Notes: generated by a model not told the origin, from the sequence alone. DNA of 40,975 nt from a bacterium (GCA_016202645.1 JACQOF010000086.1:1-40975); one strand, 5' to 3'; shown: positions 299-27,117, counted from the first letter of the stretch. Translations and numbers: made by a program.

Positions 299-1264
299 TT
301 GGTAAGAATCGCGATGAAGCAGCTCCTGGAGGCCGGCGCGCATTTCGGCCACCAGACGCGCCGTTGGAATCCCAAGATGGCGCCCTACATTTACACCAAG
401 CGAAAGAACATCCACATCATTGATTTGCAGCAGACGCTCCGGATTTTCCGGGAAGTGCTCGGCAAGATCACGGAGGTCGCGTCGACCGGCGCGCGCTTTT
501 TGTTTGTCGGCACGAAGAAGCAGGCCGCCGACGCGATCGAGCGTGAAGCCAAGCGATGCGGGATGTTCTACGTGAACACGCGCTGGCTGGGCGGCATGCT
601 CACGAACTATTCGACGATTTCCAAAAACATCGACAAGCTCGTCCGGATGGAGAGATTCGAGACCGACGGCGGACTTGAGCGGATGGGCAACCGCGAGGCC
701 AAGCGTTACCGCAAGGAACTGGCGCGTCTCCGGCAGGTCCTGTCCGGCATCCGGGACATGAAGCGACTTCCGGACATGCTGGTGATCATCGATATGAAGC
801 GGGAGTTGACGTCGGTGCAGGAAGCCCGAAAGCTCGGCATTCCGGTCGTGGGCATTCTCGACACCAACTGCGATCCCGATTGGGCGACCTTCGGCATTCC
901 CGGAAACGACGACGCCATCCGGGCCATCGCCCTCTATTTAAAAACCATGGCCGACGCCATTCTGGAGGGCGCCGCCGTTTACCAGCAAAAACTTCAGGAG
1001 GCGGAAAAGGCCGCAGCCGATGCTGCCGCCCAAGTGGCCGCCGCCTCGGCCGCCACCACCGCCGCGGCCATCGCCGCCGCGGCGTCCGCTCCGCAGGTTG
1101 AGCCCCAGCAGTCGGAGACGGCAGTGGCCGTCGCGCCGCCCCCAATGCGGACTGGAGGAAATCCCGTCCTGGGATTTCCTGATTCTGGAGCATTGGGGAC
1201 AGGACATCCTTGTCCGCCGTCACCCCAGGAGGGCGTTGCGTCCTCCGCCGGGAACAAGGAGTAG
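299..1264 (+). CDS. rpsB: 30S ribosomal protein S2 with long C-terminal extension
   Basis: S2 of the small ribosomal subunit. The core is canonical: MKQLLEAGAHFGHQTRRWNP near the N-terminus, then the IHIIDLQQT, GTKKQA and RWLGGMLTN motifs, through about residue 230. The start is TTG 299, because GGAGGTGA at 285-292 is 6 bases upstream, whereas ATG 314 is too far from it. At 321 aa it is longer than the usual 230-270 aa. After the S2 fold comes an Ala-rich, probably helical tail (about residues 235-270), then a Gly/Pro-rich segment (about 280-306) encoded by a copy of the 78-bp in-frame palindromic element. The last codons hold the tsf ribosome-binding site. It is first in the conserved rpsB-tsf-pyrH-frr order. 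Confidence 0.96.
   Translation: MVRIAMKQLLEAGAHFGHQTRRWNPKMAPYIYTKRKNIHIIDLQQTLRIFREVLGKITEVASTGARFLFVGTKKQAADAIEREAKRCGMFYVNTRWLGGMLTNYSTISKNIDKLVRMERFETDGGLERMGNREAKRYRKELARLRQVLSGIRDMKRLPDMLVIIDMKRELTSVQEARKLGIPVVGILDTNCDPDWATFGIPGNDDAIRAIALYLKTMADAILEGAAVYQQKLQEAEKAAADAAAQVAAASAATTAAAIAAAASAPQVEPQQSETAVAVAPPPMRTGGNPVLGFPDSGALGTGHPCPPSPQEGVASSAGNKE
1137..1218 (+). repeat. 78-bp in-frame palindromic element, copy A (in rpsB)
   Basis: This is the most diverged of three copies. A perfect 9-bp stem GGAAATCCC/GGGATTTCC with loop GTCCT lies at 1157-1179 and a second stem GGACA/TGTCC at 1202-1215. The left end starts CGCCCCC (1137); 78 bases later CGCC (1215) recurs but the rest of the terminal repeat has decayed. 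In the rpsB frame it encodes GNPVLGFPDSGA followed by GHPCPP, the same frame as copy B. It is preceded by the Ala-rich tail and followed closely by the rpsB stop. Confidence 0.85.
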
Positions 1265-1267
1265 CTC

Positions 1268-2095
1268 ATGCCGGCGATCACAGCGGATCAAGTCAAAGCC
1301 CTCCGGGACAAAACCGGCGCGGGCATGATGGAGTGCAAGACCGCCCTGGCGAAGACCGAGGGAGACATTCAGGCCGCGATGCGTATTTTGCGTGAAGCCG
1401 GCGCCGCCAGCGCGGCCAGGAAATCCGCCCGGGCCGCGCGTGAGGGCCGGATCGGCTCTTTCGTCGATCCGGGCCGTCTGGGGGTTCTGGTTGAAGTCAA
1501 CTGCGAGACGGATTTTGTCGCCAAGACCGAAGCCTTCCTGGAATTTTGCGATGAAGCCGCCCGAACCCTCGCGAAGAATCCTTCCGCGGACCTGGAGGCG
1601 TCCCGGACCGCTCTGGTTTCCAAGACCGGCGAGAACATCAAGATTTCCCGGCACACCCGGCTGGAGTCAAACGGCCGGAGCGCCGTTGCGGCGTACATTC
1701 ACATGGGATCAAAAATCGGCGTGCTGGCGGAACTGTCCTGCCAGACGCCCGCGTCTCTGGCCTCGCCGGACCTCCGTTCTCTTCTCGACGAGATCTGCAT
1801 GCAGATCGCCGCGTCGGCCCCGCAGGTTCTCACCCGCGAAGAAGTCCCGGCCGAACGACTGGCGGAGGAGAGGGCGATTTTGGAGAAGCAGGTAGACGCG
1901 AAGAAACCCGCGCCGATCCGCGAAAAGATCATCGCGGGCAAGCTCGGCTCGTTCTACGAGCAGATTTGTCTTCTCGAGCAGCCCTACATCCGCGAGCCCA
2001 AACGCCGGATCAAGGATTTGCTCCAGGAAAAGGGCGCGGCATTAAAGGACACCCTGCGAATCGAGCGGTTCGTCCGCTACGTCGTCGGGGACTGA
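1268..2095 (+). CDS. tsf: Elongation factor Ts
   Basis: Guanine nucleotide exchange factor that releases GDP from EF-Tu. The N-terminal UBA-like domain is clear (ADQVKALRDKTGAGMMECKT, about residues 6-25), followed by the core with the conserved CETDFVAKTE motif near residue 80, whose TDFV residues contact the EF-Tu Mg2+/nucleotide site. The C-terminal module (GSFYEQICLLEQPYI) is complete. Length 275 aa is typical. Start ATG 1268 has AAGGAG at 1256-1261, six bases upstream and inside the end of rpsB; the genes are 3 bases apart, so they are probably co-transcribed and translationally linked. Confidence 0.96.
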   Translation: MPAITADQVKALRDKTGAGMMECKTALAKTEGDIQAAMRILREAGAASAARKSARAAREGRIGSFVDPGRLGVLVEVNCETDFVAKTEAFLEFCDEAARTLAKNPSADLEASRTALVSKTGENIKISRHTRLESNGRSAVAAYIHMGSKIGVLAELSCQTPASLASPDLRSLLDEICMQIAASAPQVLTREEVPAERLAEERAILEKQVDAKKPAPIREKIIAGKLGSFYEQICLLEQPYIREPKRRIKDLLQEKGAALKDTLRIERFVRYVVGD

Positions 2096-2096
2096 T

Positions 2097-2810
2097 TTGC
2101 CGAAAGCCTCGCGCAAACCCGTACTTCTCAAACTCTCCGGAGAATCTTTCTCAGGCCAGTCCGGATTCGGCCTCGATCCCGACCGCCTCACATCCGTCGC
2201 CCGTGAACTGGCGCGTGCGTCGCGCCGGGGCATCCGTCTTGGCGTCGTGGTCGGCGGGGGAAACTTCATTCGGGGCGCCGCCTTCACGCAAAAAACCCGG
2301 GTCGTTGATTGGGCCACCGCCGACTACATGGGCATGATCTCGACCGTCCTGAACGCCATCGGTCTTCAGGAGGCATTGGAGCGGGAAGGCCGCGCCGCGC
2401 GCGTGCTGTCGGCCATTCACGTCCGGCAGGTGTGCGAGCCTTACATCCGCCGCCGCGCGCTCCGGCATCTTGAGAAAGGCCGTGTGGTGATTTTCGCCGG
2501 CGGCACCGGCAATCCTTTTTTCACGACCGACACCGCGGCTGCTCTCCGCGCGGTGGAGATCGGCGCCGGTATCCTGCTCAAGGCGACGAAAGTGGACGGC
2601 GTGTACGACCGCGACCCGAACAAATTCCGGCAGGCGCGGAAATTTTCCCGGTTGACCTACGCCGAAGCGATCTCGCGCCATCTTGACATCATGGACCAGA
2701 CCGCCTTCACCGTCTGCCGCGAGCACAAAATTCCCCTCCGAATTTTTAATCTTTTCCATCTGGCTGCGGCCTTGACGGGCAAACCCGTCGGAACGATGAT
2801 TTCCGCATGA
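2097..2810 (+). CDS. pyrH: Uridylate kinase (UMP kinase)
   Basis: Cytoplasmic ATP-dependent UMP to UDP kinase of the amino-acid-kinase fold, hexameric in known members. Family motifs are in order: KLSGESF near residue 12, GVVVGGGNFIRG about residues 46-57, FAGGTGNPFFTTDTAAALRA about residues 140-160, and ATKVDGVYDRDP near 167-178. Length 237 aa is normal. The start is TTG 2097, one base after the tsf stop; no better start keeps the N-terminal strand. The stop overlaps the frr start as ATGA (2807-2810), so translation is likely coupled. Confidence 0.95.
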   Translation: MPKASRKPVLLKLSGESFSGQSGFGLDPDRLTSVARELARASRRGIRLGVVVGGGNFIRGAAFTQKTRVVDWATADYMGMISTVLNAIGLQEALEREGRAARVLSAIHVRQVCEPYIRRRALRHLEKGRVVIFAGGTGNPFFTTDTAAALRAVEIGAGILLKATKVDGVYDRDPNKFRQARKFSRLTYAEAISRHLDIMDQTAFTVCREHKIPLRIFNLFHLAAALTGKPVGTMISA

Positions 2811-3367
2811 TCAACGAATCTCTTTTTACCGCCGCCGCGTCCGACATGGACAAATCCTGCCAGGCCTATTCGGACGAACTGGCTGGCATCCGGACCGGCC
2901 GCGCCTCCAGCAAACTTCTGGAAGACATCGAGGTCGAAGCCTACGGATCGAAGATGCGCCTGAAGGAACTTGCCTCCATCGCCGTCTCCGACCCGCGGCT
3001 TCTCGTGGTCCAGCCCTGGGACAAGTCAGTCATGCCGGCCATCGAAAAAGCCATCCGGACGTCGGACCTGAAGCTGACTCCGGCCGTCGAAGGCGGCGCG
3101 GTGCGGGTGCCGATCCCGGTTCTTTCGGAAGAGCGCCGCAAGGAACTGTCGAAAGTTCTTTCCAAGAAAGCCGAGGATGCGCGGGTGTCCGTTCGGAACA
3201 TTCGCCGGGAGGTTCTGGACCGCATCCAGGACATGCGGAAAAAGAGCGAGGCGACGGAGGACGAGGAGAAGCGTTCGAAGGACCGCGTTCAGAAGCTCAC
3301 GGACGCGGCCGTCCGGAAGATCGACGAATCCCTGGCGAAGAAATCCGAGGAGCTTGAAAAGTTCTAG
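2807..3367 (+). CDS. frr: Ribosome-recycling factor
   Basis: Splits post-termination ribosomes together with EF-G. At 186 aa it matches the family length and shows the two-domain pattern: an N-terminal helix with the ELAGIRTGRASSKLLEDIEVEAYG signature (residues about 24-47), the beta domain with LVVQPWDKSVMPAIEKAI, and the C-terminal helices with RKELSKVLSKKAEDARVSVRNIRRE. It starts at ATG 2807 within an ATGA overlap with pyrH and ends 3 bases before uppS. It is the fourth gene of the standard ribosomal/phospholipid operon. Confidence 0.96.
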   Translation: MINESLFTAAASDMDKSCQAYSDELAGIRTGRASSKLLEDIEVEAYGSKMRLKELASIAVSDPRLLVVQPWDKSVMPAIEKAIRTSDLKLTPAVEGGAVRVPIPVLSEERRKELSKVLSKKAEDARVSVRNIRREVLDRIQDMRKKSEATEDEEKRSKDRVQKLTDAAVRKIDESLAKKSEELEKF

Positions 3368-3370
3368 TCC

Positions 3371-4198
3371 GTGATCCGCCGCGCGCAGGACTGGGACCCG
3401 GCCCTCCGGGAAAAAGCCCGCCAACTCGACCCGCGCCGCATGCCCCGCCACATCGCCTTCATCATGGACGGCAACGGCCGCTGGGCCCGGCAGCGCCGCC
3501 GGCACCGCTTGATGGGGCACCGGGAGGGCATCAAGACCGCGAAGCGCATCATCCGGTTTTGTCATGACGTCGGCGGGATCGACTGCATCACGCTGTTTGC
3601 GTTTTCAACGGAGAACTGGAAGCGCCCGAAGCTGGAGGTATCCGGGCTGATGATGCTGCTCAAATATTTTCTCCGCCGCGAGACCGCCGAGATGGTTGAA
3701 AACGACATCCGGTTCCGGACCATCGGCCGGACCGACGAGTTCCCATCCTTCGTTCAGAGGGAACTTCAGCGCACCCGCGACGCCACGGCTGCCTGCCGGT
3801 CGTTTACCCTGAACGTCGCCCTCAACTACGGCGCCCGCCGGGAAATTCTGGAGGCGGCGATGGAACTCCACCGCCGTCTGGACCTCGGAGAATTGAAACC
3901 GGACCAAGTCGACGAATCCGTCTTCGAGAACCTCCTCTACACGGCGGACCTCCCGGACCTGGACCTTCTCATCCGGACCAGCGGAGAACACCGCATTTCA
4001 AATTTCCTTCTCTGGCAGGCCGCTTACGCGGAGCTGTACGTGACCCCCGCCCTCTGGCCGGACTTCGGGCCTTCCGAACTGGTCGACGCGATCCTCGACT
4101 ATCAGCACCGCGAACGCCGCTTCGGCGGTCTCCGGTCCGATTTCGCGGCTACTCGCTCCGGGGGAACGTCCAGACCCGCGATCCAACCCGCGCACTGA
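3371..4198 (+). CDS. uppS: Isoprenyl (undecaprenyl) diphosphate synthase
   Basis: Cis-prenyltransferase that builds the C55 lipid carrier for peptidoglycan and other envelope polymers. The signature HIAFIMDGNGRWARQR is present with the catalytic, Mg-binding Asp at about residue 33, then GHREGIKTAK, TLFAFSTENWKRP and, near the C-terminus, LLIRTSGEHRISNFLLWQ followed by YVTPALWPDF. It has 275 aa if it starts at GTG 3371; an ATG at 3440 sits just before the first motif and would give a shorter protein. There is no strong ribosome site before either. It is followed by cdsA, as in many bacteria. Confidence 0.94.
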   Translation: MIRRAQDWDPALREKARQLDPRRMPRHIAFIMDGNGRWARQRRRHRLMGHREGIKTAKRIIRFCHDVGGIDCITLFAFSTENWKRPKLEVSGLMMLLKYFLRRETAEMVENDIRFRTIGRTDEFPSFVQRELQRTRDATAACRSFTLNVALNYGARREILEAAMELHRRLDLGELKPDQVDESVFENLLYTADLPDLDLLIRTSGEHRISNFLLWQAAYAELYVTPALWPDFGPSELVDAILDYQHRERRFGGLRSDFAATRSGGTSRPAIQPAH

Positions 4199-4206
4199 AG
4201 GTCCGG

Positions 4207-4845
4207 GTGGCCGCCCGCCTTCCGGTTTTTTTCGGCGGTATCTTCCTCGGCGTCGGCGCCACAGTTCTCGGCGGATGGCTTTTCACTGGCGTCCTTGCGA
4301 TCGTCTCCGGTCTTCTTTTACTTGAAATGATCTCCGTCTTCACCCGCGCTGAACCCGCGCCGGGGGCGTTCGTTCCGGCGTCCGCGCTCATTTATGTCTG
4401 CGCTGGCGTGTCCGCCTTCTATCTGCTCAGATCGGCCGGCCGTTTCTGGCCCCTCTGCGCCATCCTTGTGGCGGTCACGGCCGACACCGCGGCGTATCTG
4501 GTGGGCCGCCGCTGGGGCAAAACGCCGCTCGCGCCGAAGGTCAGTCCCGCCAAGACCTGGGAGGGCGCGCTGGCCGGTGTGGTCTGTTCGGCGGTCGCCG
4601 TGGCGCTCGCGGCGACGGGCAAATCCATGCCGGCGTTCCCGGCCGCGCTGCTTGGCGCCGGTCTTGCGGTCCTGGCCGTCCTGGGGGATCTTTTCGAATC
4701 CTTTCTGAAGCGCCGCGCCGGCGTAAAAGATTTCGGTTCCAGCCTGCCCGGCCACGGCGGACTTTTCGACAGGGTCGACAGTCTTCTGGCGGTTTCCATC
4801 GGACTGTTTATTTTCACCCGCGGGCAGGCGGCGGGCGCGTGGTGA
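4207..4845 (+). CDS. cdsA: Phosphatidate cytidylyltransferase (CDP-diglyceride synthase)
   Basis: Polytopic membrane enzyme making CDP-diacylglycerol from CTP and phosphatidate, the entry to phospholipid synthesis. The C-terminal CDS signature is complete: VSPAKTWEG, LGDLFESFLKRRAGVKDFG, then LPGHGGLFDRVDS with the Mg-binding aspartates. Several hydrophobic segments precede it. At 212 aa it is shorter than the roughly 260-300 aa common in the family and seems to have fewer N-terminal helices. Start GTG 4207 is 8 bases after uppS. The stop TGA overlaps a GTG of the next gene. Confidence 0.92.
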   Translation: MAARLPVFFGGIFLGVGATVLGGWLFTGVLAIVSGLLLLEMISVFTRAEPAPGAFVPASALIYVCAGVSAFYLLRSAGRFWPLCAILVAVTADTAAYLVGRRWGKTPLAPKVSPAKTWEGALAGVVCSAVAVALAATGKSMPAFPAALLGAGLAVLAVLGDLFESFLKRRAGVKDFGSSLPGHGGLFDRVDSLLAVSIGLFIFTRGQAAGAW

Positions 4846-6569
4846 TTTATTTTCAGGTTCAAGACCGCGCGCTCCGGATGTTTCTCAACGGCCTCATGCG
4901 TCGCCTACCCTTTCCGGCCAGCGCCGGCGAAACGCCTCCGGGCCTGACCGACGCGCTGATCTTTTACGATCCTCTTGTCACTCCGACCCGTCCCGGCCAC
5001 ATTCTCCCGGCCGGCGTGTCCGCAAGTCTCGAATCCGGCAGTCCCGCCGAAGCGGAGCGGATCCTGATCGGATTCATATCCGACGCCCTGACCGCCGCGG
5101 CGGTTGAACACGACGCGGAACTCGACATGCTTGCGGTCGAGGAAGAAGACCACCGCCGCCGGATCAAGGACATCGAGACGCGCCGTGCGCGTCTCAAAGA
5201 ATTGGCGGAGCTGACGGTCTCGGCCGGCGCTCAGTTGAAGGACTGGTCGCCTCCCGCGCCCGATGCGGCGCCGGAGACTCCCCAAGATGCCGAGTCGCCC
5301 GCGCCCGCGCAGCCCGAATCATCGGACGACGCGTCTTTATACCCGCAGCTCACCGCGCGTCTCCGGTCGATCATGGAAAAAACGGGCGGCGTTCTCGATG
5401 CCTCCTCATTCGACGACGCCTTCCGTCTGACCTTTGATCTGGGTCTTTCCTCCGAAGTCTCCCCTCACAGCGCGGCCGGGCCTCTGGAGGAATTCCGGAC
5501 GCCGCATCACCGGGTCCTGCACATCAGCGAGTATCTGTCGCGGAAGTTTGTCGAGATTTATCAATTCGACAGCATCCGGGACACGGAACGGACCCTGTCC
5601 GGGATCCGCGCCGTGGTGGAGGAACACAAAACCCGGCTGGCAAAGCTCCAACAGATGCGACGGCAGTCCGTCGCCGCCGCCGGCCCCAACCTTTCCGCCG
5701 ACTTCGACCGCCAAGCCCGCGCGCAGTATCAGTACTCCTTTCTGGACGCCCGGCGCCGGACGGCGGCGCTGACGGTCGAGGAGAAAAAGCAGTTTGGAAT
5801 CCTGGAGGAGGAATTACAGAAGCTCGCCCGGTCGATCGAATCCGAACTGTACATGCGTTTTTCCTCCTCCCCGGATTTCCTCACGACGCTTGGCCGGATC
5901 AACCAGGCGATCCACCAGAGCATCCAGGAACTCATCCGCGCCCAGGAGGACGAGCCGGCCAAAGCGGACCTTCTCGCCAGGCTCCGGGAGACCTACGACG
6001 GGTCGTCCGTCCGGGAAAAGTGGCTGAAGATGGACGAGCAGGTCCGGCGCCTCTCGCAGTTCGCCAAACTGTTGGCCGGCCGGTCCCGCCACCGGCCGTT
6101 CACGGCCGTCACGCCGCCGCCGTGGCCGCTGACGGGAAAATTGGTGACGGACGAATTGAACCGGATCCAGTCCCTCGACACGACGCTCTTTCCGGAAAAA
6201 TTCCTCCGCCGTCGCGGACTTCCCTCGGTCCTGCTCCTGCCGTGTTTCGGTTCCGGCCTCTATGACTGGCAGGACGGTCTCATCGTGATGTCTCTCTATC
6301 CGGAAAACATCACGTCCGCCGCCGTCGCGGCCCTGGCGGAATTCCGGATGGACGCCGACGATTCGAAGGAACTTTTCAACAGCTTCGGCAGCGACATCAA
6401 GCGCAACCGCGGGCTGGGATTTGCGAAACTCAAGGAGCTGTTTATTTCGGATTATTCAGCCTGGATCCAAAAAGAAGCCCAGGGATTCCGGGTGATGGAG
6501 AAGGACATCCGGTCGTGGTTCGAGCGGAAGATCCCCATGGGCGACGGAAAATCCCGGGGCCGCGGATGA
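4842..6569 (+). CDS. Conserved-looking hypothetical protein with coiled coil, unknown function
   Basis: I do not recognise this 575-aa protein. It has no signal peptide or membrane span. About residues 85-130 are charged and helical (LDMLAVEEEDHRRRIKDIE region), likely a coiled coil; about 135-165 is an acidic Pro/Ala linker; about 230-360 is another long helical, Arg/Lys/Glu-rich stretch (TVEEKKQFGILEEELQKLAR); the C-terminal 150 residues look globular. It is placed between cdsA and an oxidoreductase with overlaps at both ends (GTGA 4842-4845, ATGA 6566-6569), so it is a translated operon member. GTG 4839 is an equally possible start, and ATG 4878 would also fit. Confidence 0.8.
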   Translation: MIYFQVQDRALRMFLNGLMRRLPFPASAGETPPGLTDALIFYDPLVTPTRPGHILPAGVSASLESGSPAEAERILIGFISDALTAAAVEHDAELDMLAVEEEDHRRRIKDIETRRARLKELAELTVSAGAQLKDWSPPAPDAAPETPQDAESPAPAQPESSDDASLYPQLTARLRSIMEKTGGVLDASSFDDAFRLTFDLGLSSEVSPHSAAGPLEEFRTPHHRVLHISEYLSRKFVEIYQFDSIRDTERTLSGIRAVVEEHKTRLAKLQQMRRQSVAAAGPNLSADFDRQARAQYQYSFLDARRRTAALTVEEKKQFGILEEELQKLARSIESELYMRFSSSPDFLTTLGRINQAIHQSIQELIRAQEDEPAKADLLARLRETYDGSSVREKWLKMDEQVRRLSQFAKLLAGRSRHRPFTAVTPPPWPLTGKLVTDELNRIQSLDTTLFPEKFLRRRGLPSVLLLPCFGSGLYDWQDGLIVMSLYPENITSAAVAALAEFRMDADDSKELFNSFGSDIKRNRGLGFAKLKELFISDYSAWIQKEAQGFRVMEKDIRSWFERKIPMGDGKSRGRG

Positions 6570-8292: not shown

Positions 8293-8296
8293 CCTC

Positions 8297-8470: not shown

Positions 8471-8484
8471 AAGGAGACCAGGTC

Positions 8485-13039: not shown

Positions 13040-13054
13040 GCCGCGCCTCCGCCG

Positions 13055-14973: not shown

Positions 14974-16553
14974 GCGGGATGACCGACGGGATGGAGAAGT
15001 TCCAGAAGCTCCTGGTCCGGTCGCGGCTCTGGATCATCGGCGCGGTGTTTCTCGGGATCGCCGTTTATCTCCTGCCTCACATCCTCTATTTTTCCTGGCG
15101 CCCCGCGATCCTCCTGACCGAATCGGCCGTCCGGGACATTCAGGCCATGCCGGCGGTCGCCCGGAAGCGCATGGCCGAGCGGATCCGCCAGAAAAATGTG
15201 CAGGGCGTGGCGGTCCCGGAATTGACGCTGGCGGATCTCGAGGCATCCGGAAACGCATTTGTGGCGTCGGGCAATGATCTGCTCCGGATTTTTAAAATCC
15301 AGTCCATCGCCTCCTATTACGTGTTTGAACAGGTTCGGGACAAAAATTTGAAGAACGATGGGTCCTACATATTTTTTTCGGAATCCGCTTTGTTCGAGGC
15401 GGTCCACACCGCCCTGAAGTCGCGGCTGGACCAGGGCGAAATCGCCGTCTATGAACGCGGCATCTTCCGCGCGGACGCATCCTTCCCCGATAACTTTATC
15501 CTGGAATCATCCGTCCCGCCCGGCCGCATCCGGGACATGCCCCTCGGTTGGGTGATGCCGCCCGCCGCGGGTGCCCTGTCCGCGCTCACGGAATTGACCG
15601 GCGAATCCACCTACCGGGCGGTTCTCCACCCGGCAAGCCCCGCATCGCGGACGGACACGGGATATTTCGTGATCCACGAACCGTATTTGCGGTTCCCCTG
15701 CCGCTCAATCCGGATCATCGACGACCCGCTGGATTTGATTCACGCCCGCCGCGGCGCGTCTCTGCAGTCCGTGTTTGCCGTTCCGGTCGCTTCTCCCGAT
15801 GCGTGCCTGGCGGTCGCTGGATTGCTTGTTCTGTTGGCCTTGCTGAGTTTCGTCCAGTGGACCGTGTGGGCCCCGGCGGTCGCGGCCGGGTTTGTGGTGT
15901 TGACACTGGCGATTCTCCCGGCGCAGATCAACTGGGCCGCGCTTGGCATGGCGTTTCTTCTCCCGCCGGCCGGGCTGATTCTCTGGGTGGCCGCGTCGGA
16001 CACCGGGCGCCTTCGCGCGCATCCGGTCTGGGGATCGGCAAAATTTGGCGGCCGATTTCTCGGAGTTCTGTTTCTCTCGGCGCTCGTCCCCGGCTGGCTG
16101 ATCTCCTCCCTGGCCTGGCAGTTTCCGCATCTGCAGATTGGCCGCTATGCGTTCTTTGGAAATCTTCTCCTTCCGTTTATTTCCACGGGACTTTTTCTCG
16201 CGGTGTGGAGCATCGAAGCGTCGAACCGGTCGCTCTACCTGCGGCACGTCCGGATGGGCTTGGAACTGGCCATGGCGGCGGTCGTGTTGGCCGCGCCGGT
16301 TTCGCCGGGAATCGTGTGCGTCGCCGCCGTCTGCGCATGGGCGCGCTGGATGGTCCTCCTGGAACGTGCCCGCCTCCGGGCGCAGGAAGATTCTCCCGGC
16401 ATATGGGCCGTCTTTTTCATCTCCGGCGCACTCGGTCTCAAACTCTTTTTGACGGTGTCGCCCGTTTATGCATCCCTGCTGAATCTCTCGGGGGTCATCC
16501 TGGCCGCATTCATCGGCCGCGCCTGGATGTTGCGGACACACCGGGGGATTTAG
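14970..16553 (+). CDS. Polytopic membrane protein, DUF5693-like
   Basis: 527 aa. One membrane helix at about residues 20-42 is followed by a soluble, probably extracytoplasmic domain of some 220 residues that contains VQGVAVPELTLADLEASGN, then about eight hydrophobic helices to the end. This layout and the G-V-x-x-x-A-V-x-E-x-T-L-x-D-L-E-x-x-G pattern resemble DUF5693 proteins, which in other bacteria often sit near cell-wall or exopolysaccharide genes. No catalytic motif is recognisable. ATG 14970 overlaps the prfB stop. The family assignment is tentative; the membrane topology is clear. Confidence 0.75.
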   Translation: MSGMTDGMEKFQKLLVRSRLWIIGAVFLGIAVYLLPHILYFSWRPAILLTESAVRDIQAMPAVARKRMAERIRQKNVQGVAVPELTLADLEASGNAFVASGNDLLRIFKIQSIASYYVFEQVRDKNLKNDGSYIFFSESALFEAVHTALKSRLDQGEIAVYERGIFRADASFPDNFILESSVPPGRIRDMPLGWVMPPAAGALSALTELTGESTYRAVLHPASPASRTDTGYFVIHEPYLRFPCRSIRIIDDPLDLIHARRGASLQSVFAVPVASPDACLAVAGLLVLLALLSFVQWTVWAPAVAAGFVVLTLAILPAQINWAALGMAFLLPPAGLILWVAASDTGRLRAHPVWGSAKFGGRFLGVLFLSALVPGWLISSLAWQFPHLQIGRYAFFGNLLLPFISTGLFLAVWSIEASNRSLYLRHVRMGLELAMAAVVLAAPVSPGIVCVAAVCAWARWMVLLERARLRAQEDSPGIWAVFFISGALGLKLFLTVSPVYASLLNLSGVILAAFIGRAWMLRTHRGI

Positions 16554-18172
16554 TGTCCCTGAAAGTGGCGGAGTGGGCCGCGGATCTCAGGCCGGCCATT
16601 GAGCGCCACATCGCTTCGAATCCATCCGCCGGAACAATCCAGGATTCAGTCGCCGTCCTGGACATCCTCGTCCTTCTCTACGGAGAATTCCTCGATCATC
16701 GGCCCGTCAATCCGGCCTGGCCGGACCGGGATCGATTCATCCTGCTGAAGCGATCCGCATGGCCGGCGCATCTGTGTTTGCTCGCGCGTCTCGGGTATTT
16801 CTCCGCCGATGCCGCGGGGCCTTGTCCGGATATGAATGCCGCCCCCGGCATCGATTTTTCGACGCCCTCGCCGGCCGGCGGTCTTGCGGCCGCCGCCGGA
16901 ATGGCCATGGCCCTCCGCGCGGATAACCGGCCGTCCCGGGTGTTCGCGCTCATGGCCGCGCCGGATTTGTTCTGCGGCCGCGCGTGGGAGGCGGTGGAGA
17001 CAGCAGGCCGGGAAAAATTGGGAAAATTTTGCCTCATCGTCGAACAACGTCTTCCGCTCGAAACCAGGCCTTCGAGCGCCGCCCTTCTCGAAAGGTTCAG
17101 GGCCTTCGGATGGGATGGCACCGTCGCCGGAGCTCACGCGGCGGACGAACTGCGGTATGCGTTTTCCAAATTGCCGAAGACGGCATCCGGCCGGCCTTTT
17201 GTGGTCGTCGCGGAAGGTCGCGCCGATGGGTCCGCCCCGGACAATGCGGTCCATCCGGTTTGGGACGGATTTAAGAATCACATGAACCATGTCGCGAAAA
17301 AATATCCCGGGGTGACCCTCATCGAAGCTCCAAGCGCCGCCTCGACGCCGGTCGAACTCGCCTGCGGCATGGCCCTTGCGGGAAAAATCGTGGTCTTGAA
17401 ACTCGCGACCCGCGCCGCGGTCGGCCGGCTCTGGGAGGATATCAACACCGCGTCGGCGCACGTAAAAAAAAATCTGACGGTCGTGTCCGGCCCGCCCCCT
17501 TCGCAGATTGAAGGAAATCCCGTCCTGGGATTTCCTGAGTCTGGAGCTTCGGGGACTGGACATCCCTGTCCGCCCCTTTCGTCCGGACTGGAACCGATTT
17601 CCGGAGATCTCGGACTGCTCCGCCTCATTCCGGCGGCGGAGGTCTACGCGCCCGCGGCGGCGGATGAGGCCGGCCGAGCCCTTGAACGCTGTGTGAGCCG
17701 CCAGTGCCTCTCGTATCTTCGGCTCCCCGACGCCTGGGCGCCCGAGCCGCTTTCATCGGAATTGTCGAATGCCGTCCCCGGAGAGTGGACGCGGGTGCGC
17801 CCGGGCGACGACGTGATCCTGCTCTCCTGCGGAGAACTGACCGGGCCGGCCATCCGGGCCGCCGCGCGCCTGGGAAGCGAATGCGGCGTCCAGGCCGGCG
17901 TCATCCACGCGGGCTCTATCGCCCCGCCGGACCGAAATCTTCTCAAGGAAATCGCCCGCAGGGCCCGCCTCCTGGTGACATGCGAACCGGCTCTGCCGCC
18001 GTCAGGCCTCGGCGGCCTGGTCTCGGAATTTTTGGCGTCGGAGGGTTCCGCCGTTAAACTCATCCGGCTGGGAATGCCTTCCGAAGACGCCTCCGCTCCA
18101 GAGTCCCGGGCGGACGCCATCTGGTCATCGGTCAGGCGGCATCTCCAGCCAGTCCCCCGAAGAAGAAAATGA
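16553..18172 (+). CDS. Transketolase-like protein lacking cofactor and catalytic motifs
   Basis: 539 aa with full-length transketolase layout: N-terminal domain (AWPDRDRFILLKRSA, about residues 55-69), pyrimidine domain (about 253-385) and C-terminal domain. Key motifs have changed: the family SKGH is LKRS (65-68); the ThDP motif GDG...N has become MAAPDLF at 134-140 with no matching Asn; the Glu of IAEQ that activates ThDP aligns with Ala 263 in SAAS. A 78-bp palindromic element adds about residues 314-342 in the loop before GDLGLLRLIP. The start is GTG 16553, which shares one base with the previous stop. Probably not an active transketolase; a scaffold or regulator, or a gene in decay, are possible. 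Confidence 0.8.
   Translation: MSLKVAEWAADLRPAIERHIASNPSAGTIQDSVAVLDILVLLYGEFLDHRPVNPAWPDRDRFILLKRSAWPAHLCLLARLGYFSADAAGPCPDMNAAPGIDFSTPSPAGGLAAAAGMAMALRADNRPSRVFALMAAPDLFCGRAWEAVETAGREKLGKFCLIVEQRLPLETRPSSAALLERFRAFGWDGTVAGAHAADELRYAFSKLPKTASGRPFVVVAEGRADGSAPDNAVHPVWDGFKNHMNHVAKKYPGVTLIEAPSAASTPVELACGMALAGKIVVLKLATRAAVGRLWEDINTASAHVKKNLTVVSGPPPSQIEGNPVLGFPESGASGTGHPCPPLSSGLEPISGDLGLLRLIPAAEVYAPAAADEAGRALERCVSRQCLSYLRLPDAWAPEPLSSELSNAVPGEWTRVRPGDDVILLSCGELTGPAIRAAARLGSECGVQAGVIHAGSIAPPDRNLLKEIARRARLLVTCEPALPPSGLGGLVSEFLASEGSAVKLIRLGMPSEDASAPESRADAIWSSVRRHLQPVPRRRK
17493..17580 (+). repeat. 78-bp in-frame palindromic element, copy B (in transketolase-like gene)
   Basis: The 78-bp unit is bounded by CGCCCCCTTC (17493-17502) and CGCCCCTTTC (17571-17580). 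Inside are the perfect stem GGAAATCCC/GGGATTTCC (17513-17535, 5-base loop) and GGACA/TGTCC (17558-17571). It is nearly identical to copy C and reads in the same frame as copy A (GNPVLGFPESGASG, then GHPCPP). The reverse strand is also stop-free across it. Confidence 0.9.
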
Positions 18173-18293: not shown

Positions 18294-18298
18294 ACGCA

Positions 18299-18758: not shown

Positions 18759-18774
18759 CAGTCTTGCCAATCTT

Positions 18775-18876: not shown

Positions 18877-18917
18877 ATCATCACCAGAAGGGCCTAACCC
18901 AATGCCATAAGATACTT

Positions 18918-20117: not shown

Positions 20118-20169
20118 CGGGTAATTGTGCACTGAAAATCGCCGGATTTCAAACCCAAGGGTCAACTAA

Positions 20170-20193
20170 CTAATGGCTAATGGGGGCTAATGG
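20170..20193. repeat. Three CTAATGG repeats in the ATP-grasp/esterase intergenic region
   Basis: CTAATGG occurs at 20170-20176, 20177-20183 and 20187-20193, about 55-75 bases upstream of the ATP-grasp start. Together with the palindromic element at 20258-20355 this fills most of the 324-base divergent gap (20118-20441). No convincing promoter for either gene was found there. Confidence 0.35.
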
Positions 20194-20257
20194 TGCCGGG
20201 TATTCAGTTTCATCAGTTATTGAGAATGGGTAACCGGTCGGTAGAAGGGGATGTATA

Positions 20258-20355
20258 AACTCTTCCCCCCTTGAGGGGGAAGCTGGATGGGGGGTTTCAG
20301 CGGGGCGTATTGGTGACACCCCCCTCCCAACCTCCCCCTCAAGGGGGGAGGAGTT
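20258..20355. repeat. 98-bp palindromic repeat element
   Basis: Two 38-base arms (20258-20295 and 20318-20355) are inverted copies with five mismatches, separated by 22 bases. Each arm itself contains the palindromic CCCCCTTGAGGGGG-type core. This motif resembles small intergenic repeats known from many genomes. It lies in the gap between the divergent ATP-grasp and esterase genes and would form a long cruciform or hairpin. Confidence 0.75.
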
Positions 20356-20441
20356 CTTGAAAAGCCGCCGTTCACCGACCCATTACGAGAATGGAGACTT
20401 CAATCTGGCGTTGTCGTGCCGGTAGGGGTATGATCTGCGGC

Positions 20442-21179: not shown

Positions 21180-21187
21180 GCGCTCTG

Positions 21188-23017
21188 TCAACCGATGGGC
21201 CGCTCAAAAAAAATACGGTGCCACTGGTTGAGGCATATGATTTTCCAAATCGCCGCGAAATCCGATTCGCCGCCGCTTTGGCGGAGCCGCCTTAAAAGGG
21301 ATGGATGCGACAGATTCCGGGCCGCCCAGCCTTCGAGCAAAAGTTCCTCGCGGCGCTCCAGAAGTTTCTTGAGCCAGGCGGTCTGGGGCGTCTCGAATCC
21401 GATCTTATCCTTTCGATCCAGCACCCGCGCCGGAACAAATTCTCTCATGGCCTCCCGCAAAATCCATTTGGATCCCCTGGCGGACAGCCTCCAGTCGACC
21501 GGTGTTTGGCAGGCGGTTTCGGCGAGCCGGTGGTCCAAAAACGGCACGCGGGATTCGATGGAGAAGGCCATCGAGTTTCGATCCTCGTAGTGGAGCAATT
21601 TGGGCAGGTGTAATTCAAAGGTGTCCCTGTCGAGCCGCGTTTTCAGATCCCGGTACTGCAGATTCTCGAATGTCCGGGAAAGATATTGAAATTCGACATC
21701 GCCGCGCAGATCGGCATTGAGGGCCCGCCATGCGGGAGATCGGATCCGAAAGAGCGCGGCCTTGAGTCCCGCCGGCGCCAGTCCATAAACCGCGCGCGGA
21801 AGAGAAGACCCTTCCCGGAGCATCCGAATCCAACGGCCGTGGAGGAGCAAGTCGGAGGCCATCACGTCCCGGTGGGCCGGGTAACCGGCAAAGAGTTCGT
21901 CCGCGCCCTGGCCGTCCAGGAGAACCTTCACGCCCTTTTCCCGGGCCATGCGCATCACGCACCACTGGGCGTAGACGCTGCTGTGAACCGGCGGTTCGTC
22001 CTGAAAATAAATCATCTTCTCCAGATCCTCGAACATCCGATCGGGGCCGGGGATCACCACATGCCAGTCCATCGCCTTGGCTTTCACCACCTCCCGCGCG
22101 TACTCGCGCTCATCAAAGGGGCTGTCGTCATAAGCCGACGTAAACGCGACCATCGGCGCGGAATCCTGTTTCAGAGCGCGGGCCAGGCTGACGATGCTTG
22201 AGGAGTCGATCCCGCCGCTCAGACAAAATCCGACCGGAACATCCGCGACGAGATGTTCCCGGACCGACCGCAGGAGATCTTCCCGGACCTGCCGGACGGA
22301 GGCTCCCCAATCGGCGCGGTTTTCCTGCGCCGTCGGCAATGACCAATATCGCCACTGTGTCAGGCGATGCCCGGTCAAGTCCAACCGGAAGGCATGTGCC
22401 GGCGGGACCTGCAGGATGTCCTTGAACATCGTCTGCTCCGTGTGGTCATGCAGGTTGAAAAGGAAATAATCGAGGATGCGCCCGGAATTCGGCGCCGTTT
22501 TCACATGGGGATGGGCCAGGAGAGACTTGATCTCGGACGCCGCGCAAAAACGGTCTTTGTCCTGATAGTAATAGAGGGGCTTGATTCCGAACCGGTCCCG
22601 GGCGCCGAACAATTTATTCTTTCGCGGGTCCCAGATGACGAAGGACCACATGCCGGCGAGTCGATCCAGGCAGGATTCCCCCCACTCTTCATACGCGGCC
22701 AGGAGGACTTCCGTGTCGGTTTTCGACCGGAACCGCCGGCCGCCGGCCTCGAGAACGCCGCGGAGTTCCTGGAAATTATATATTTCTCCGTTGAAGACAA
22801 TCACCGGGCCACCGGGGGCCGACTGCATCGGCTGATGGCCGCGAAGGCTGAGATCGATGATGGAAAGGCGCCGGTGGGCCAGGCTTACCCGAAGCGGTCC
22901 CACATCCTGGGAAAAAACACCTCGATCGTCAGGTCCCCGGTGTGAGATCAGGTCCAGCTGGGCGCTCACGTCGGGCGCCAGGGACGCCGGGTCAACGCCT
23001 GTCACAAATCCGCACAT
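21188..23017 (-). CDS. asnB: Asparagine synthetase B-like, glutamine-hydrolysing
   Basis: 609 aa, two-domain amidotransferase. The N-terminal class II glutaminase domain begins MCGF with Cys2 as nucleophile and has SHRGPDDRG and FNGEIYN; the C-terminal synthetase domain has the PP-loop SGGIDSSSIVSLA and DGQGADELFAGY. It converts aspartate to asparagine with glutamine and ATP, or amidates another carboxylate in a polymer pathway, as AsnB paralogues in polysaccharide clusters are suspected to do. It is divergent from wecB with only 51 bases between starts. The context (epimerase, glycosyltransferase, ATP-grasp) favours a specialised role. Confidence 0.9.
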   Translation of the reverse strand: MCGFVTGVDPASLAPDVSAQLDLISHRGPDDRGVFSQDVGPLRVSLAHRRLSIIDLSLRGHQPMQSAPGGPVIVFNGEIYNFQELRGVLEAGGRRFRSKTDTEVLLAAYEEWGESCLDRLAGMWSFVIWDPRKNKLFGARDRFGIKPLYYYQDKDRFCAASEIKSLLAHPHVKTAPNSGRILDYFLFNLHDHTEQTMFKDILQVPPAHAFRLDLTGHRLTQWRYWSLPTAQENRADWGASVRQVREDLLRSVREHLVADVPVGFCLSGGIDSSSIVSLARALKQDSAPMVAFTSAYDDSPFDEREYAREVVKAKAMDWHVVIPGPDRMFEDLEKMIYFQDEPPVHSSVYAQWCVMRMAREKGVKVLLDGQGADELFAGYPAHRDVMASDLLLHGRWIRMLREGSSLPRAVYGLAPAGLKAALFRIRSPAWRALNADLRGDVEFQYLSRTFENLQYRDLKTRLDRDTFELHLPKLLHYEDRNSMAFSIESRVPFLDHRLAETACQTPVDWRLSARGSKWILREAMREFVPARVLDRKDKIGFETPQTAWLKKLLERREELLLEGWAARNLSHPSLLRRLRQSGGESDFAAIWKIICLNQWHRIFFERPIG

Positions 23018-23031
23018 GTCTCTTATATAAC

Positions 23032-23060
23032 TTGTCTGACCGCCGGATGAAAGTTAGCAT
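23032..23060 (+). promoter_or_regulatory. Possible wecB promoter
   Basis: TTGTCT (23032-23037) and TAGCAT (23055-23060) are 17 bases apart and end 8 bases before ATG 23069. Each matches the sigma-70 consensus at only four positions. The same TAGCAT -10 occurs before the cNMP-binding gene. An AT-rich TTATATAA (23023-23030) could serve the divergent asnB gene. Confidence 0.35.
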
Positions 23061-23068
23061 ACGCGCCG

Positions 23069-24124
23069 ATGAAAATTGTATCGATTGTCGGTGCCCGGCC
23101 TCAATTCATCAAAGCCTCCGTTCTAACCCCTCTGTTGAGGGAGCGGCACGACGAAATTCTCCTGCACACGGGCCAGCATTACGACTATGCGATGTCCAAA
23201 TTGTTTTTTGACGACCTGGGTCTGCCCGAACCCAAATACAACCTGGGTGTCGGCTCCGGATCGCACGGAGAGCAAACCGGCGCGATGCTGGCCGCCATCG
23301 AGAAGGTTCTGCTGTCCGAAAAGCCCGACTACGTCCTAGTCTACGGCGATACGAACTCGACCCTCGCCGGCGCCCTCGCGGCCGCGAAGATCCACATCCC
23401 GGTGGCGCACGTCGAAGCCGGGGAGCGGATTTTTGACCGGCGACAACCGGAGGAGACGAACCGGATTCTGACGGACCACGTCTCCTCCCTGCTTTTCTGC
23501 GCCACCCATCCGGCGGTCGGGCACCTGGCCCACGAAGGCATTCAAACGGGCGTGCACGAAGTCGGCGATGTGATGTACGACCGGCTGCTGCTCAGTCTGC
23601 CCACGGCCGAAAAAAAATCCCATGTTCTGAAAGACCATGGCCTCAAGGAGCGCGGGTATTTTTTTGCCACGGTTCATCGGGAGGAAAACACAAATTATCC
23701 GGACCGCCTCCGCTCCATTCTGGACGCCTTCAACCAGGCCGACTGCCCGATCGTCTTTCCCGTCCACCCCCGCACCCGAAAATTCATTCGGGAGATGAAC
23801 TTGAACGTGAAACCCCACGTCCGGCTGATCGAGCCCGTGAGCTATTACGACGCGCTGCTTCTGCAGATCCACGCGAAAAAAATCCTGACCGATTCGGGCG
23901 GCGTGGCCCGGGAAGCCTACCTGCTGGGTGTGCCCTGCATCACGCTCATGGAAAAAATCGCCATCCGGCAGACGGTGGACCTGGGCTGGAACAAACTGGT
24001 GGGCGCGGATCTCGCGGCCATTCAGGAGGCGTTAAGCCATTTCAATCCCGGCGGCGCCCGCCCCGCCGTATTCGGCGACGGAAAAGCGGGAGAGAAAATC
24101 CGGTCGATTCTGGACCGGCAATAG
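23069..24124 (+). CDS. wecB: UDP-N-acetylglucosamine 2-epimerase (non-hydrolysing)
   Basis: 351 aa, interconverts UDP-GlcNAc and UDP-ManNAc for surface polysaccharides. Motifs in order: MKIVSIVGARPQFIKASVL, the HTGQHYDYAMSKLFFDDL region, LVYGDTNSTLAGALAA, HVEAGERIFDRRQPEETNR with the catalytic acidic residues, TVHREENT, and LTDSGGVAREAYLLGVPCITL. In most family members HVEAG is followed by LR rather than the ER seen here, so a related UDP-sugar cannot be excluded. It ends one base before the glycosyltransferase gene, forming a two-gene operon. Confidence 0.92.
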   Translation: MKIVSIVGARPQFIKASVLTPLLRERHDEILLHTGQHYDYAMSKLFFDDLGLPEPKYNLGVGSGSHGEQTGAMLAAIEKVLLSEKPDYVLVYGDTNSTLAGALAAAKIHIPVAHVEAGERIFDRRQPEETNRILTDHVSSLLFCATHPAVGHLAHEGIQTGVHEVGDVMYDRLLLSLPTAEKKSHVLKDHGLKERGYFFATVHREENTNYPDRLRSILDAFNQADCPIVFPVHPRTRKFIREMNLNVKPHVRLIEPVSYYDALLLQIHAKKILTDSGGVAREAYLLGVPCITLMEKIAIRQTVDLGWNKLVGADLAAIQEALSHFNPGGARPAVFGDGKAGEKIRSILDRQ

Positions 24125-24125
24125 G

Positions 24126-25457
24126 ATGCCGCGCGTTTTACTCGTCAGTTTCACCTACCCGCCCGGATTCGGCAGCGGCGGGATACGGATTTCCAAATTC
24201 GCCAAATTCCTTCCGGAATTCGGATGGGAACCGGTCGTTCTGACCGTTGATCCCGCCTATTATCCATTCCGGGGCGGCCTCGAAACTCTGCTCGGGAATG
24301 AACGGCGATACACCACCGGATTCTTCGATCCCCTCGGTTGGATCCGCCGGAGGTTTCCGCTTGAATCGCCGCCCGCCTCCGATGCGTCTTCCGGCGCGGC
24401 TCCGGCCAGGACCTCGTTGTCCAGACGCATCTTGAAAAAATTCCGGCCCATTGCCAAATACATTTGGGACATCATCTATTTCCCCGATCCGCAGATTGGC
24501 TGGTACCCGTACGCCGTCTCAGCCGGGCACCGGATCATCCGGGACTGCGGCATCGATGTTGTATTTTCGAGTTCACCGCCGCATACCGACCATCTGATCG
24601 GCGCGAAGCTTTCGCGGGATTTCGATCTACCCTGGGTGGCGGAGTACCGGGATCCGTGGACGGACCAGCACACCTATCGGAAGAGCTGGCCGGTATCGGC
24701 CATCGAGCGGCGGCTTGAACGCCGAACCCTCGAGCGCGCGGCCGGCCTCATCAGCATTTCTCCGATCCTGGCGGAACGGTTGTCCCAAAAACTCGGAAAG
24801 CTTGTCCACGTCATAGAAAACGGATTTGATCCGGACGATCTGCCCCCCCCGGCCGCCGCGACCGGCGGTCCATTTCTTCTGATCCATGCCGGAACGCTGT
24901 ATCGGGGCCAGAGGGATCCCGGAGTGTTTTTTGAGGGATTAAAACGTCTCAGAGAAAAAATGGATTTGACGCCGTCGCGCATTCAGGCGCAGTTCGTCGG
25001 TGTGTTGTCGGAAATGGCGCTGGAGCTGGCGCACAAGCACGGCGTATCGGATCTGGTATCGGCGCTTCCGCGCGAGCCTTACGAAACGGTGTTACAGCGC
25101 CAATCCCGGGCCACGGCGCTCCTCCTGCTTGGCCTGAAGGATCCGATGGGCGGCGGAGTCCTCACCGGAAAGATGTTTGAATATTTCGGCCTTCGGCGGC
25201 CCATCCTGGGCGTCGGCGCGCCGGACCCGGATCTGGAGGAAATCATCCGCCGGACACAAACCGGGACCTTCACAACGACACCGGCGGCGGCGGCCGATGT
25301 GCTGTCCAGATGGATTTTGGAATATGAGCGGGACGGCGCTGTCCGTTACCAGCCGGCCGAGGACGAAATCAACAAATATCACCGGAGGGAAAGCGCCGGA
25401 AAACTGTCGGAGATATTAAACCGCGCGCTGGGCCGGGGGGTTGGCGGCAACTGTTAA
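24126..25457 (+). CDS. Glycosyltransferase, GT4-like GT-B fold
   Basis: 443-aa predicted glycosyltransferase. The N-terminal domain starts MPRVLLVSFTYPPGFGSGGIR, common in GT4-like proteins, and has VFSSSPPHTDHLIGA and VAEYRDPWTD; the C-terminal nucleotide-sugar half has LIHAGTLYRGQRDP, LPREPYETVLQRQSRATALLL and GGVLTGKMFEYFGLRRPILG, with the family's Glu position in KMFEYF. It follows wecB by one base, so it may use a ManNAc-derived donor. It converges with the histidine kinase gene; only four bases separate the two stop codons, and no terminator is visible between them. Confidence 0.88.
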   Translation: MPRVLLVSFTYPPGFGSGGIRISKFAKFLPEFGWEPVVLTVDPAYYPFRGGLETLLGNERRYTTGFFDPLGWIRRRFPLESPPASDASSGAAPARTSLSRRILKKFRPIAKYIWDIIYFPDPQIGWYPYAVSAGHRIIRDCGIDVVFSSSPPHTDHLIGAKLSRDFDLPWVAEYRDPWTDQHTYRKSWPVSAIERRLERRTLERAAGLISISPILAERLSQKLGKLVHVIENGFDPDDLPPPAAATGGPFLLIHAGTLYRGQRDPGVFFEGLKRLREKMDLTPSRIQAQFVGVLSEMALELAHKHGVSDLVSALPREPYETVLQRQSRATALLLLGLKDPMGGGVLTGKMFEYFGLRRPILGVGAPDPDLEEIIRRTQTGTFTTTPAAAADVLSRWILEYERDGAVRYQPAEDEINKYHRRESAGKLSEILNRALGRGVGGNC

Positions 25458-25461
25458 TCTG

Positions 25462-27117
25462 TTAGCCTCCGTCCCCTTTTGCGCCTTTTGCGGGGGTGTC
25501 CAGGACTTCTCGGATTTTCCGGGCGAGGTCTGATGGAGTGAACGGCTTTTGGATGAAGGCGATGGACGGGTCTGCGGGGGCGTGGTGGATGAGGACTTCG
25601 TCGGTGTAGCCGGACATGAGGAGGCATTTGATGCCGGGGTGGGAGGCTTTGACGATGCGGGCCATGTCGCGGCCTGTCATGACGGGGAGGACGATGTCGG
25701 AGAGGATGAGATGGAATCCGTCGTTCGAACGCTGGGAGAGGGCGACGGTCTCTTCAGCCGATCGCACGGCGTGGACGGTATAGCCCTTTCCTTTGAGGAT
25801 GCGTTCGATGAGGCTGAGGCGTGCCGGGTCGTCTTCTACGACGAGGATCGATTCAGAACCGCCGGGCGGTTCGATCGTTGATCCGGGTGCTCCCGCGCCG
25901 GCCCATTCCTCCCGGGCCCTGGGAAAATACACCGTGACCGTTGTGCCTTCCCCGGGTGCGGTTCTGACGCCGATGTGCCCTCCGCTTTTTCGGATAATTT
26001 CAGAACAGGTCGACAGCCCCAATCCCGAGCCGGTTTGATTATCCTTGGTGGTAAAGAACGGCTCGAACATCCGGGATTGGACATCGGGCGGCATACCTAC
26101 TCCCGTATCCGTCACGGAGAGGCGGACATGGGGGCCGGGTCGAAGCTGTTCGCCCCCTTCGCGGATTGAAGGAAATCCCGTCCTGGGATTTCCGGAGTCT
26201 GGAGCTTCGGGGATTGGACATCCCTGTCCGCCCCCTTCCGTCACGAGGAGGTCATCCGGTTCAAGGTGGACGTTGGCGGTTTCGATGGTGAGCGCGCCGC
26301 CGCCCGGCATGGCGTCTCTCGCGTTGACCACCAGGTTCAGGATCACCTGTTCCGCCTGTCCCGGACTCACTTTTACGAGGCCGAGGCCCTCCCCGAGGTT
26401 CAGGCGGAAGTCAATGTGTTTTCCGGCGATCTTGGCGAGCATCCGGTCCATGCCGATGAGGAGGTCGTTGACGCAGATGACGACCGGCTCTTGATTTGGC
26501 CGCCGGGCGTAGGTCAACAACTGCCGGGTGAGCCTTGCCGCGCGCTCCGATCCGGTTTTAATTTCCTTGAGGTCCGCCCGGGTTTGGGCCATCTCCGGCG
26601 GAATCGTCCGGAGAATGACCTCCGCGTATCCCATGATACCGGTCAGCAGATTGTTGAAATCGTGGGCGACGCCGGCGGCCAGCCATCCCACCGATTCCAT
26701 TTTTCGGGATTGATAGAGCTGGTTCTCCAGTTGTTTGCGGGCGGAGACGTCGCGGACCGTCGCCATGACCCACCGCCGCCGATGGGATCTGAACGGGACC
26801 AAGTGGACATCCGCCGGGAATTCCGACGCGTCTTTTTTTCTGCCCGCCACATCCGTCAAGACCGCGGGTGCGGCTCCGCCCGGGGCTGAGAGATGGGCCG
26901 ATCGTTGGTCCACGTGCCGGGCCCGCATTCGCGTCGGAATGAGGATCTCGACCGGCTGTCCGATCAGTTCATCTGGAGCGTATCCAAAGATAGATTCGGT
27001 TTGGCGGTTGGCCGCCGCGATCAGGCCGGCCTCGTCCACGACCACGGCCGCGTTGGGCATGGACTCAAACAACCGTTTGTAAAAAAGCGCGTCAGGCGGT
27101 CCCGGCGCCGTCGGCAT
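25462..27117 (-). CDS. Hybrid sensor histidine kinase (PAS-HisKA-HATPase-REC)
   Basis: 551 aa, no membrane span, so a cytoplasmic sensor. PAS domain about residues 12-130; HisKA with phospho-His 152 in VAHDFNNLLTGIMGYAE; HATPase with N-box NLVVNARDAMPGGG (261-274), G1 DTGVGMPP (337-344), FEPFFTTK (351-358) and GSGLGLST; then a receiver domain with VVEDD and phospho-acceptor Asp 474 in ILSDIVLP. Residues about 295-322 between N-box and G1 come from a reversed copy of the 78-bp palindromic element, in a loop that varies in this family. It starts 3 bases after the merR stop, so the two are one operon. The signal is unknown. Confidence 0.93.
   Translation of the reverse strand: MPTAPGPPDALFYKRLFESMPNAAVVVDEAGLIAAANRQTESIFGYAPDELIGQPVEILIPTRMRARHVDQRSAHLSAPGGAAPAVLTDVAGRKKDASEFPADVHLVPFRSHRRRWVMATVRDVSARKQLENQLYQSRKMESVGWLAAGVAHDFNNLLTGIMGYAEVILRTIPPEMAQTRADLKEIKTGSERAARLTRQLLTYARRPNQEPVVICVNDLLIGMDRMLAKIAGKHIDFRLNLGEGLGLVKVSPGQAEQVILNLVVNARDAMPGGGALTIETANVHLEPDDLLVTEGGGQGCPIPEAPDSGNPRTGFPSIREGGEQLRPGPHVRLSVTDTGVGMPPDVQSRMFEPFFTTKDNQTGSGLGLSTCSEIIRKSGGHIGVRTAPGEGTTVTVYFPRAREEWAGAGAPGSTIEPPGGSESILVVEDDPARLSLIERILKGKGYTVHAVRSAEETVALSQRSNDGFHLILSDIVLPVMTGRDMARIVKASHPGIKCLLMSGYTDEVLIHHAPADPSIAFIQKPFTPSDLARKIREVLDTPAKGAKGDGG
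26151..26238 (-). repeat. 78-bp in-frame palindromic element, copy C (antisense, in histidine kinase gene)
   Basis: CGCCCCCTTC at 26151-26160 and an identical copy at 26229-26238 bound a 78-bp unit. Stems: GGAAATCCC/GGGATTTCC at 26171-26193 and GGACA/TGTCC at 26216-26229. On the plus strand it differs from copy B at only a few positions; the host gene is on the minus strand, so the protein reads the other strand (GGQGCPIPEAPDSGNPRTG). The plus-strand frame used in copies A and B is also open here. Confidence 0.9.

Follow-up and report, generated by a model that had tools for sequence, protein, structure and literature searches.

How does one and the same palindromic segment of DNA come to lie in frame within three unrelated protein genes, and do other genes of the same genome carry it? 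Most of what is known about palindromic elements that lie in frame comes from Rickettsia and Wolbachia, and their way of moving is still open. The window analysed here, a 40,975-nucleotide stretch of bacterial DNA, is contig C60 of a 2.9-Mb assembly (146 contigs, 82% complete).

Three copies of a 78-bp unit in the window

An earlier note on this DNA had placed palindromic copies at 1137–1218, 17493–17580 and 26151–26238, all within coding sequence. All three are present; these coordinates took in some flanking bases, and the net unit is 78 bp in every copy (Table 1). The host genes encode uS2, a transketolase-like protein and a hybrid kinase, which bears out the coding location, and the GGACA/TGTCC stem and the reading direction were also as described, with copies 1 and 2 in one shared forward frame and copy 3 in a reverse frame. 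The GGAAATCCC-GTCCT-GGGATTTCC stem shows no difference among the copies, and the main-hairpin pattern gave three exact matches in the window against 0.00 expected from shuffled sequence.

In uS2 the insert lies in the C-terminal tail, past the Pfam domain and past the residues that match ribosome structures (PDB matches stop near residue 230–270). The insert in the transketolase-like protein separates the N-terminal from the C-terminal part, with PDB matches on either side. That in the kinase lies in a loop of the HATPase domain, flanked on both sides by structure matches; residues 136–284 and 329–400 were matched to 5idj, which has a 15-residue loop where there are ∼45 residues here. An AlphaFold2 model of the kinase segment made without an alignment had a pLDDT of 37 and was unusable.

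Table 1. Element copies, host genes and hairpins in the window, and loci of subfamily C.
Feature	Position or locus	Strand	Remarks
Element copy 1	1139..1216	+	A/B intermediate (B-type helix 1, A-type helix 2), 78 bp, forward frame of uS2 gene
Host gene 1, ribosomal protein uS2 (rpsB)	299..1264	+	Pfam Ribosomal_S2, 2e-91
Element copy 2	17495..17572	+	Subfamily A, 78 bp, forward frame
Host gene 2, transketolase-like protein	16547..18172	+	Pfam Transketolase_N and _C; start codon uncertain
Element copy 3	26153..26230	+	Subfamily A, 78 bp; host gene on minus strand
Host gene 3, hybrid sensor histidine kinase	25462..27117	-	PAS-HisKA-HATPase-response regulator (Pfam)
Helix 2 of copy 2	17512..17536		AGGAAATCCC-GTCCT-GGGATTTCCT; equivalents 1156-1180, 26170-26194
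Helix 3 of copy 2	17558..17571		GGACA-TCCC-TGTCC; equivalents 1202-1215, 26216-26229
C-tRNA loci	L111, L112, L116-L120, L122, L132, L147, L155, L158, L135		Helix-3 end toward tRNA
C-terminator loci	L138, L149, L151, L153, L154		L153, three tandem units

A repeat family with a narrow distribution

The 78-base repeat occupies ∼54 places in the 2.9-Mb assembly, and DNA searches found at least ∼40 copies per query among the matches listed. A covariance model (41 copies) gave 61 matches in the genome itself (G000) and 11 in G001; it matched neither G002 nor G003. A second model, run over 60 genomes, gave matches only in G000, G001 and, doubtfully and weakly, G002, where the match (L125) looks spurious. 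Copies were thus found only in this genome and in G001, Candidatus Lindowbacteria RIFCSPLOWO2_12_FULL_62_27, which belongs to the same family (contigs MFPR01000001, 292,560 bases, and MFPR01000004, 507,730 bases); the window organism sits near that lineage. The first wide DNA search had found only two G001 copies, and the covariance models detected more.

Scanning a genome collection with a first pattern, which was too strict and excluded subfamily B, gave no match. The matches of a looser pattern were mostly chance ones in unrelated organisms, and only two Lindowbacteria contigs were accepted; over genome contigs this pattern gave no Rickettsia match. No copy was found in the viral contigs and the plasmid and phage records searched, and an Rfam search with copy 2 and its flanks only gave nothing significant, with no family above its gathering score.

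Three subfamilies differ in divergence. Subfamily A, with 29 copies in the first alignment, has copies at unrelated places that are 93–96% identical to copy 3 across ∼82 bp, and it is recent. Subfamily B is more diverged than A and is present in G001 too. Subfamily C is the most diverged, and we infer from this divergence and from its occurrence in both genera that it represents the older state.

Three hairpins are supported by covariation

The unit consists of three hairpins, helix 2 being nested inside helix 1 and helix 3 forming the right end, and all three have covariation support. In the family alignment, 97.6% of the cells of helix 2 are paired and 9 of its 10 pairs show changes on both sides; for the whole structure, 89% of cells pair and both-side changes occur in 19 of 26 pairs. 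A covariation score as high as that observed was reached in none of 500 shuffles, and the signal was lost when partner columns were slid. An alignment built without the covariance model gave the same structural picture.

The middle of helix 1 is unpaired in subfamily A, and its arms in subfamily B are CAAYGC/GCRTTG. In subfamily C, direct reading indicates a CATCC-N-TG-like core shared by the loops of helices 2 and 3. The A and B copies are 78 bp long with three exceptions: copies of 75 and 45 bp, which lie in genes and keep the frame, and an intergenic copy of 77 bp. The 45-bp copy (L036:3377-3427) lacks helix 2 and is read in frame as 15 codons just after a signal-peptide-like start.

The copies are insertions

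We carried out the orthologue comparison proposed in the earlier note, using as query the two flanks of each segment joined without it. Orthologues of RecF, LeuRS, RibF, the E2 acyltransferase and ValRS from two other genera have gaps of 25–26 residues; those of a spermidine-synthase-like protein have gaps of similar size, and RecG, SMC and an OGG-like protein aligned less cleanly at the insert site. Because the segment is absent from sister-genera orthologues at exactly these places, the copies are insertions. The presence of all window copies in reading frames could also be expected if the segments had belonged to the proteins ancestrally, or formed a protein motif in common, rather than being inserted DNA. 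We give this idea almost no credence: besides the empty orthologous sites, it is the DNA that is conserved while the peptide varies by frame and strand, and ∼11 copies are intergenic.

The conserved unit spans alignment columns 3–80, that is, 78 bp. Most copies are preceded by YG, usually CG, and CC is preferred after them; no target-site duplication was seen beyond the 2-bp YG at both ends, and the flanks do not covary. The simplest reading of these sequences would be a 78-bp insertion that follows a YG dinucleotide. Movement itself is inferred from the dispersion of the copies and the empty orthologous sites, without a polymorphic site from a close strain.

Copies within genes respect the reading frame

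Frames were judged from codon usage, with a score trained on the retrieved loci, and the gene calls are our own, so the counts are approximate. In the genome itself 54 A/B copies could be judged: ∼34 lie within a frame, ∼9 over a gene end and ∼11 are intergenic. For the ∼34 internal copies the frame is supported on both sides of the element, and Pfam domains lie on one or both sides; the ∼9 that overlap a gene start or end, the uS2 copy among them, do so in an open frame. Such a tally of position and frame had also been suggested beforehand, and it places most of the other copies in genes and in frame. The claim that no copy is intergenic holds for the window but not for the genome.

In nearly every copy, five of the six frames are open. 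Host genes use all five of these, with the element in both orientations relative to the gene, and the closed sixth frame is never used within genes. We estimate that 78 bp at 61% GC would be open in five of six frames with a chance of ∼5%; this is not very surprising, and adaptation to coding sequence is therefore not shown. No visible gene disruption was seen among the copies examined, as expected if disrupting insertions are lost.

Hosts concerned with DNA repair or the chromosome (at L011, L013, L020, L022 and L035) include RecF, RecG, an AddA-like nuclease-helicase (two copies), SMC and an OGG-like glycosylase; we have no enrichment figure for them. This host list recalls the bias towards DNA-repair genes reported for intragenic REPs (PMC3733652). 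Among the other hosts are ValRS, LeuRS, RibF, 2-oxoacid dehydrogenase E2, histidine kinases, NAD-glutamate dehydrogenase and a glutaredoxin/thioredoxin-reductase-like fusion.

The insertions inside domains of essential enzymes (LeuRS, RibF, E2), together with the stable hairpins, raise the possibility of post-transcriptional skipping or removal of the element, as a mini-intron or by a byp-like bypass, so that the proteins lack the 26 residues. The byp elements are translational bypass elements of Magnusiomyces mitochondria. We consider such skipping very unlikely, because an RNA-level device works in one orientation and the element occurs in both, because the stop-containing frame is unused in genes although removal would render it harmless, and because the in-gene length variants (75 and 45 bp) preserve the frame. 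The use of both orientations likewise fails the expectation for group I/II or other mobile introns, which work in one orientation only. Orientation and strict frame use thus point to translation through the element rather than splicing, and argue against bypass of the byp type, although we have no protein data on ribosome skipping itself. Translation through the element is an inference, expression being untested.

Subfamily C lies at tRNA and terminator ends

The copies of subfamily C are 78–82 bp long, sometimes tandem, and intergenic, never inside genes. At ∼18 of 22 sites they lie at tRNA ends or intrinsic terminators, each time with the same element end, that of helix 3 (Table 1). This right end adjoins a tRNA gene at ∼13 sites; far fewer than one contact would be expected by chance, by our own estimate from tRNA density. 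The tRNAs contacted are Leu(CAG), Lys(TTT), Arg, Gly, Trp, Met, Leu(TAG) and Lys(CTT) in G001, and Glu, Cys (via a tandem unit), Val and Leu(CAG) in G000, where a further contact involves a tRNA-like T-arm that ARAGORN did not call. Glu and Gly are contacted at the 5′ end and the remaining tRNAs at the 3′ end. At ∼5 more sites, direct reading shows the right end entering the A-tract of an apparent intrinsic terminator on the other strand.

The 3′ end of tRNA-Leu(CAG) is occupied in both genera (L116 in G001, L158 in G000), by units that differ in sequence. In G001 (L121:2085-2510), a 3′ fragment of tRNA-Leu(CAA) adjoins one element, and ∼340 bp off lies a complete tRNA-Leu(CAA) gene whose 5′ end carries a further hairpin unit; the arrangement resembles a small island in which a tRNA end has been duplicated.

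The position of C at tRNA and terminator ends, and the Leu(CAG) site shared between genera, could reflect a functional module maintained by the host, with C acting in tRNA 3′-end formation or termination and the A/B copies as strays. This seems improbable to us: with Glu and Gly contacted at the 5′ end, polarity relative to the transcript varies, the two genera have units of different sequence at the shared Leu site, the element is present at only some tRNAs and tandem arrays also occur.

We saw no tRNA or terminator target context for the A/B copies, and an apparent excess of structure on their right side, which would have suggested insertion next to hairpins, was gone after a dinucleotide control. 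The difference in target between C and A/B looks new. Helix 3 is mostly RTACA/TGTAY at tRNAs, RTCCA/TGGAY at terminators and GGACA/TGTCC in A/B; since it differs by context, it may carry or track target specificity. We suggest tentatively, and with rather less than even confidence, that one palindrome lineage switched target, from the older C at tRNA ends and terminators to the derived A/B element, fixed at 78 bp, within protein genes.

A mobile element inferred to be moved in trans

We are fairly confident that the segment is a mobile DNA element, short, palindromic and non-autonomous, whose in-frame copies are tolerated by the host proteins. That it moves as hairpin-bearing DNA by means of a trans-acting enzyme is inferred, as is its near-neutral effect on hosts. 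The usual position of the element is after a YG dinucleotide, mostly CG, and before C-rich sequence, and no longer stretch of the target is duplicated. An insertion that falls in a gene in a usable frame would be transcribed and translated through, the protein tolerating an addition of 26 residues; with 26 codons and five stop-free frames, copies in a usable frame would be read through, and other in-gene insertions would be removed by selection. Insertion and purifying selection suffice, so that the in-frame pattern is explained without adaptation. The earlier proposal of a selfish element that resembles those of Rickettsia and is adapted to live in genes is upheld as regards in-gene, in-frame insertion, while ‘selfish’ and ‘adapted’ remain inferences. 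For the guanylate kinase of Rickettsia with a Rickettsia palindromic element, there is a report of an active product (Abergel 2006, summarized in PMC2229807).

Neither a mobilizing enzyme nor an autonomous parent was found in the 82%-complete assembly. For a parent with split ends, the right-end pattern gave the known copies plus C8:969, where no left half was visible. The hairpin-rich ends, a duplication of ≤ 2 bases and the short flank preference suit HUH single-strand transposition or recombination by a 2-bp crossover. The former draws attention to ten Y1 transposase genes (Y1_Tnp) in the genome (L089–L098), resembling the TIR-associated tyrosine transposases described in PMC3733652. The element could be a REP-like substrate of these IS200/IS605-type, RAYT-like enzymes, an option that we think unlikely but worth retaining: the element does not flank any of these genes, every one of the ten is bordered by a terminal inverted repeat of its own (∼30 bp), which is unrelated to the element, and the element has no GTAG tag.

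Relation to known elements

Like the element described here, the palindromic elements of Rickettsia and Wolbachia are short repeats found in frame in unrelated conserved genes and also between genes; they are absent from outside orthologues and have no known mobilizing enzyme (PMC2229807, PMC3767692, PMC10969869). The Rickettsia elements (RPE) are ∼100–150 bp single long stem-loops of Rickettsiales with terminal inverted repeats (PMC2229807, PMC3767692), whereas ours has 78 bp and three hairpins, belongs to a Lindowbacteria relative and has a sister subfamily that lies where tRNAs and terminators end. In-frame insertion in unrelated genes is met; the length and the single stem are not, and no direct comparison with RPE sequences was made. 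We therefore describe it as a separate in-frame palindromic family that works like RPE, which is our best reading. Protein-coding palindromic repeats outside Rickettsiales were reported in Methanocaldococcus jannaschii (Suyama 2005), and, as far as the account in PMC2229807 goes, they share palindromic form and coding potential with this element in a different domain of life.

Like this element, bacterial MITEs are non-autonomous, structured and dispersed, with occasional in-frame gene fusions. MITEs such as ERIC, RUP, Correia/NEMIS and YPAL end in inverted repeats and usually duplicate TA or a longer target sequence. In the present element only the YG dinucleotide matches at both ends, and the combination of terminal inverted repeats and target-site duplication expected of a DDE-type MITE is not met.

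GTAG- and CGTC-tagged REPs are also short palindromes, some of them in genes and several in DNA-repair genes, and CGTC REPs resemble this element in having no dedicated transposase (PMC3733652). REPs are 20–40 bp long with an unpaired GTAG or CGTC tag (PMC3733652), in contrast to 78 bp and a YGTCCC end paired in helix 1. A tagged palindrome of that size and copies flanking a RAYT gene, as expected of a RAYT-REP system, are both lacking.

With its recent copies, orthologue comparisons, defined hairpins and a sister subfamily whose target is different and precise, this family from an uncultured lineage is an independent case that makes it testable where protein-coding repeats originate and how they choose their target. 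It also indicates that a genome can acquire many protein insertions of 26 residues, even in tRNA synthetases and DNA-repair proteins.

Other repeat- or insertion-like sequences were met near some copies. In the LeuRS fragment (L033), a Pro/Ser-rich stretch at residues ∼20–50 (PHQASPAPDPPSGRVPRGFPSVTRGEED) immediately precedes the matched editing domain and looks like a further insertion, unrelated or decayed. Translations like VIPAKAGI and CHSRESGNP, fused or adjacent, occur at ORF ends in L011, L030 and L032, and the left flank of L112 contains ttcccgcgaaagcgggaat; these recall the dRS3-type repeat.
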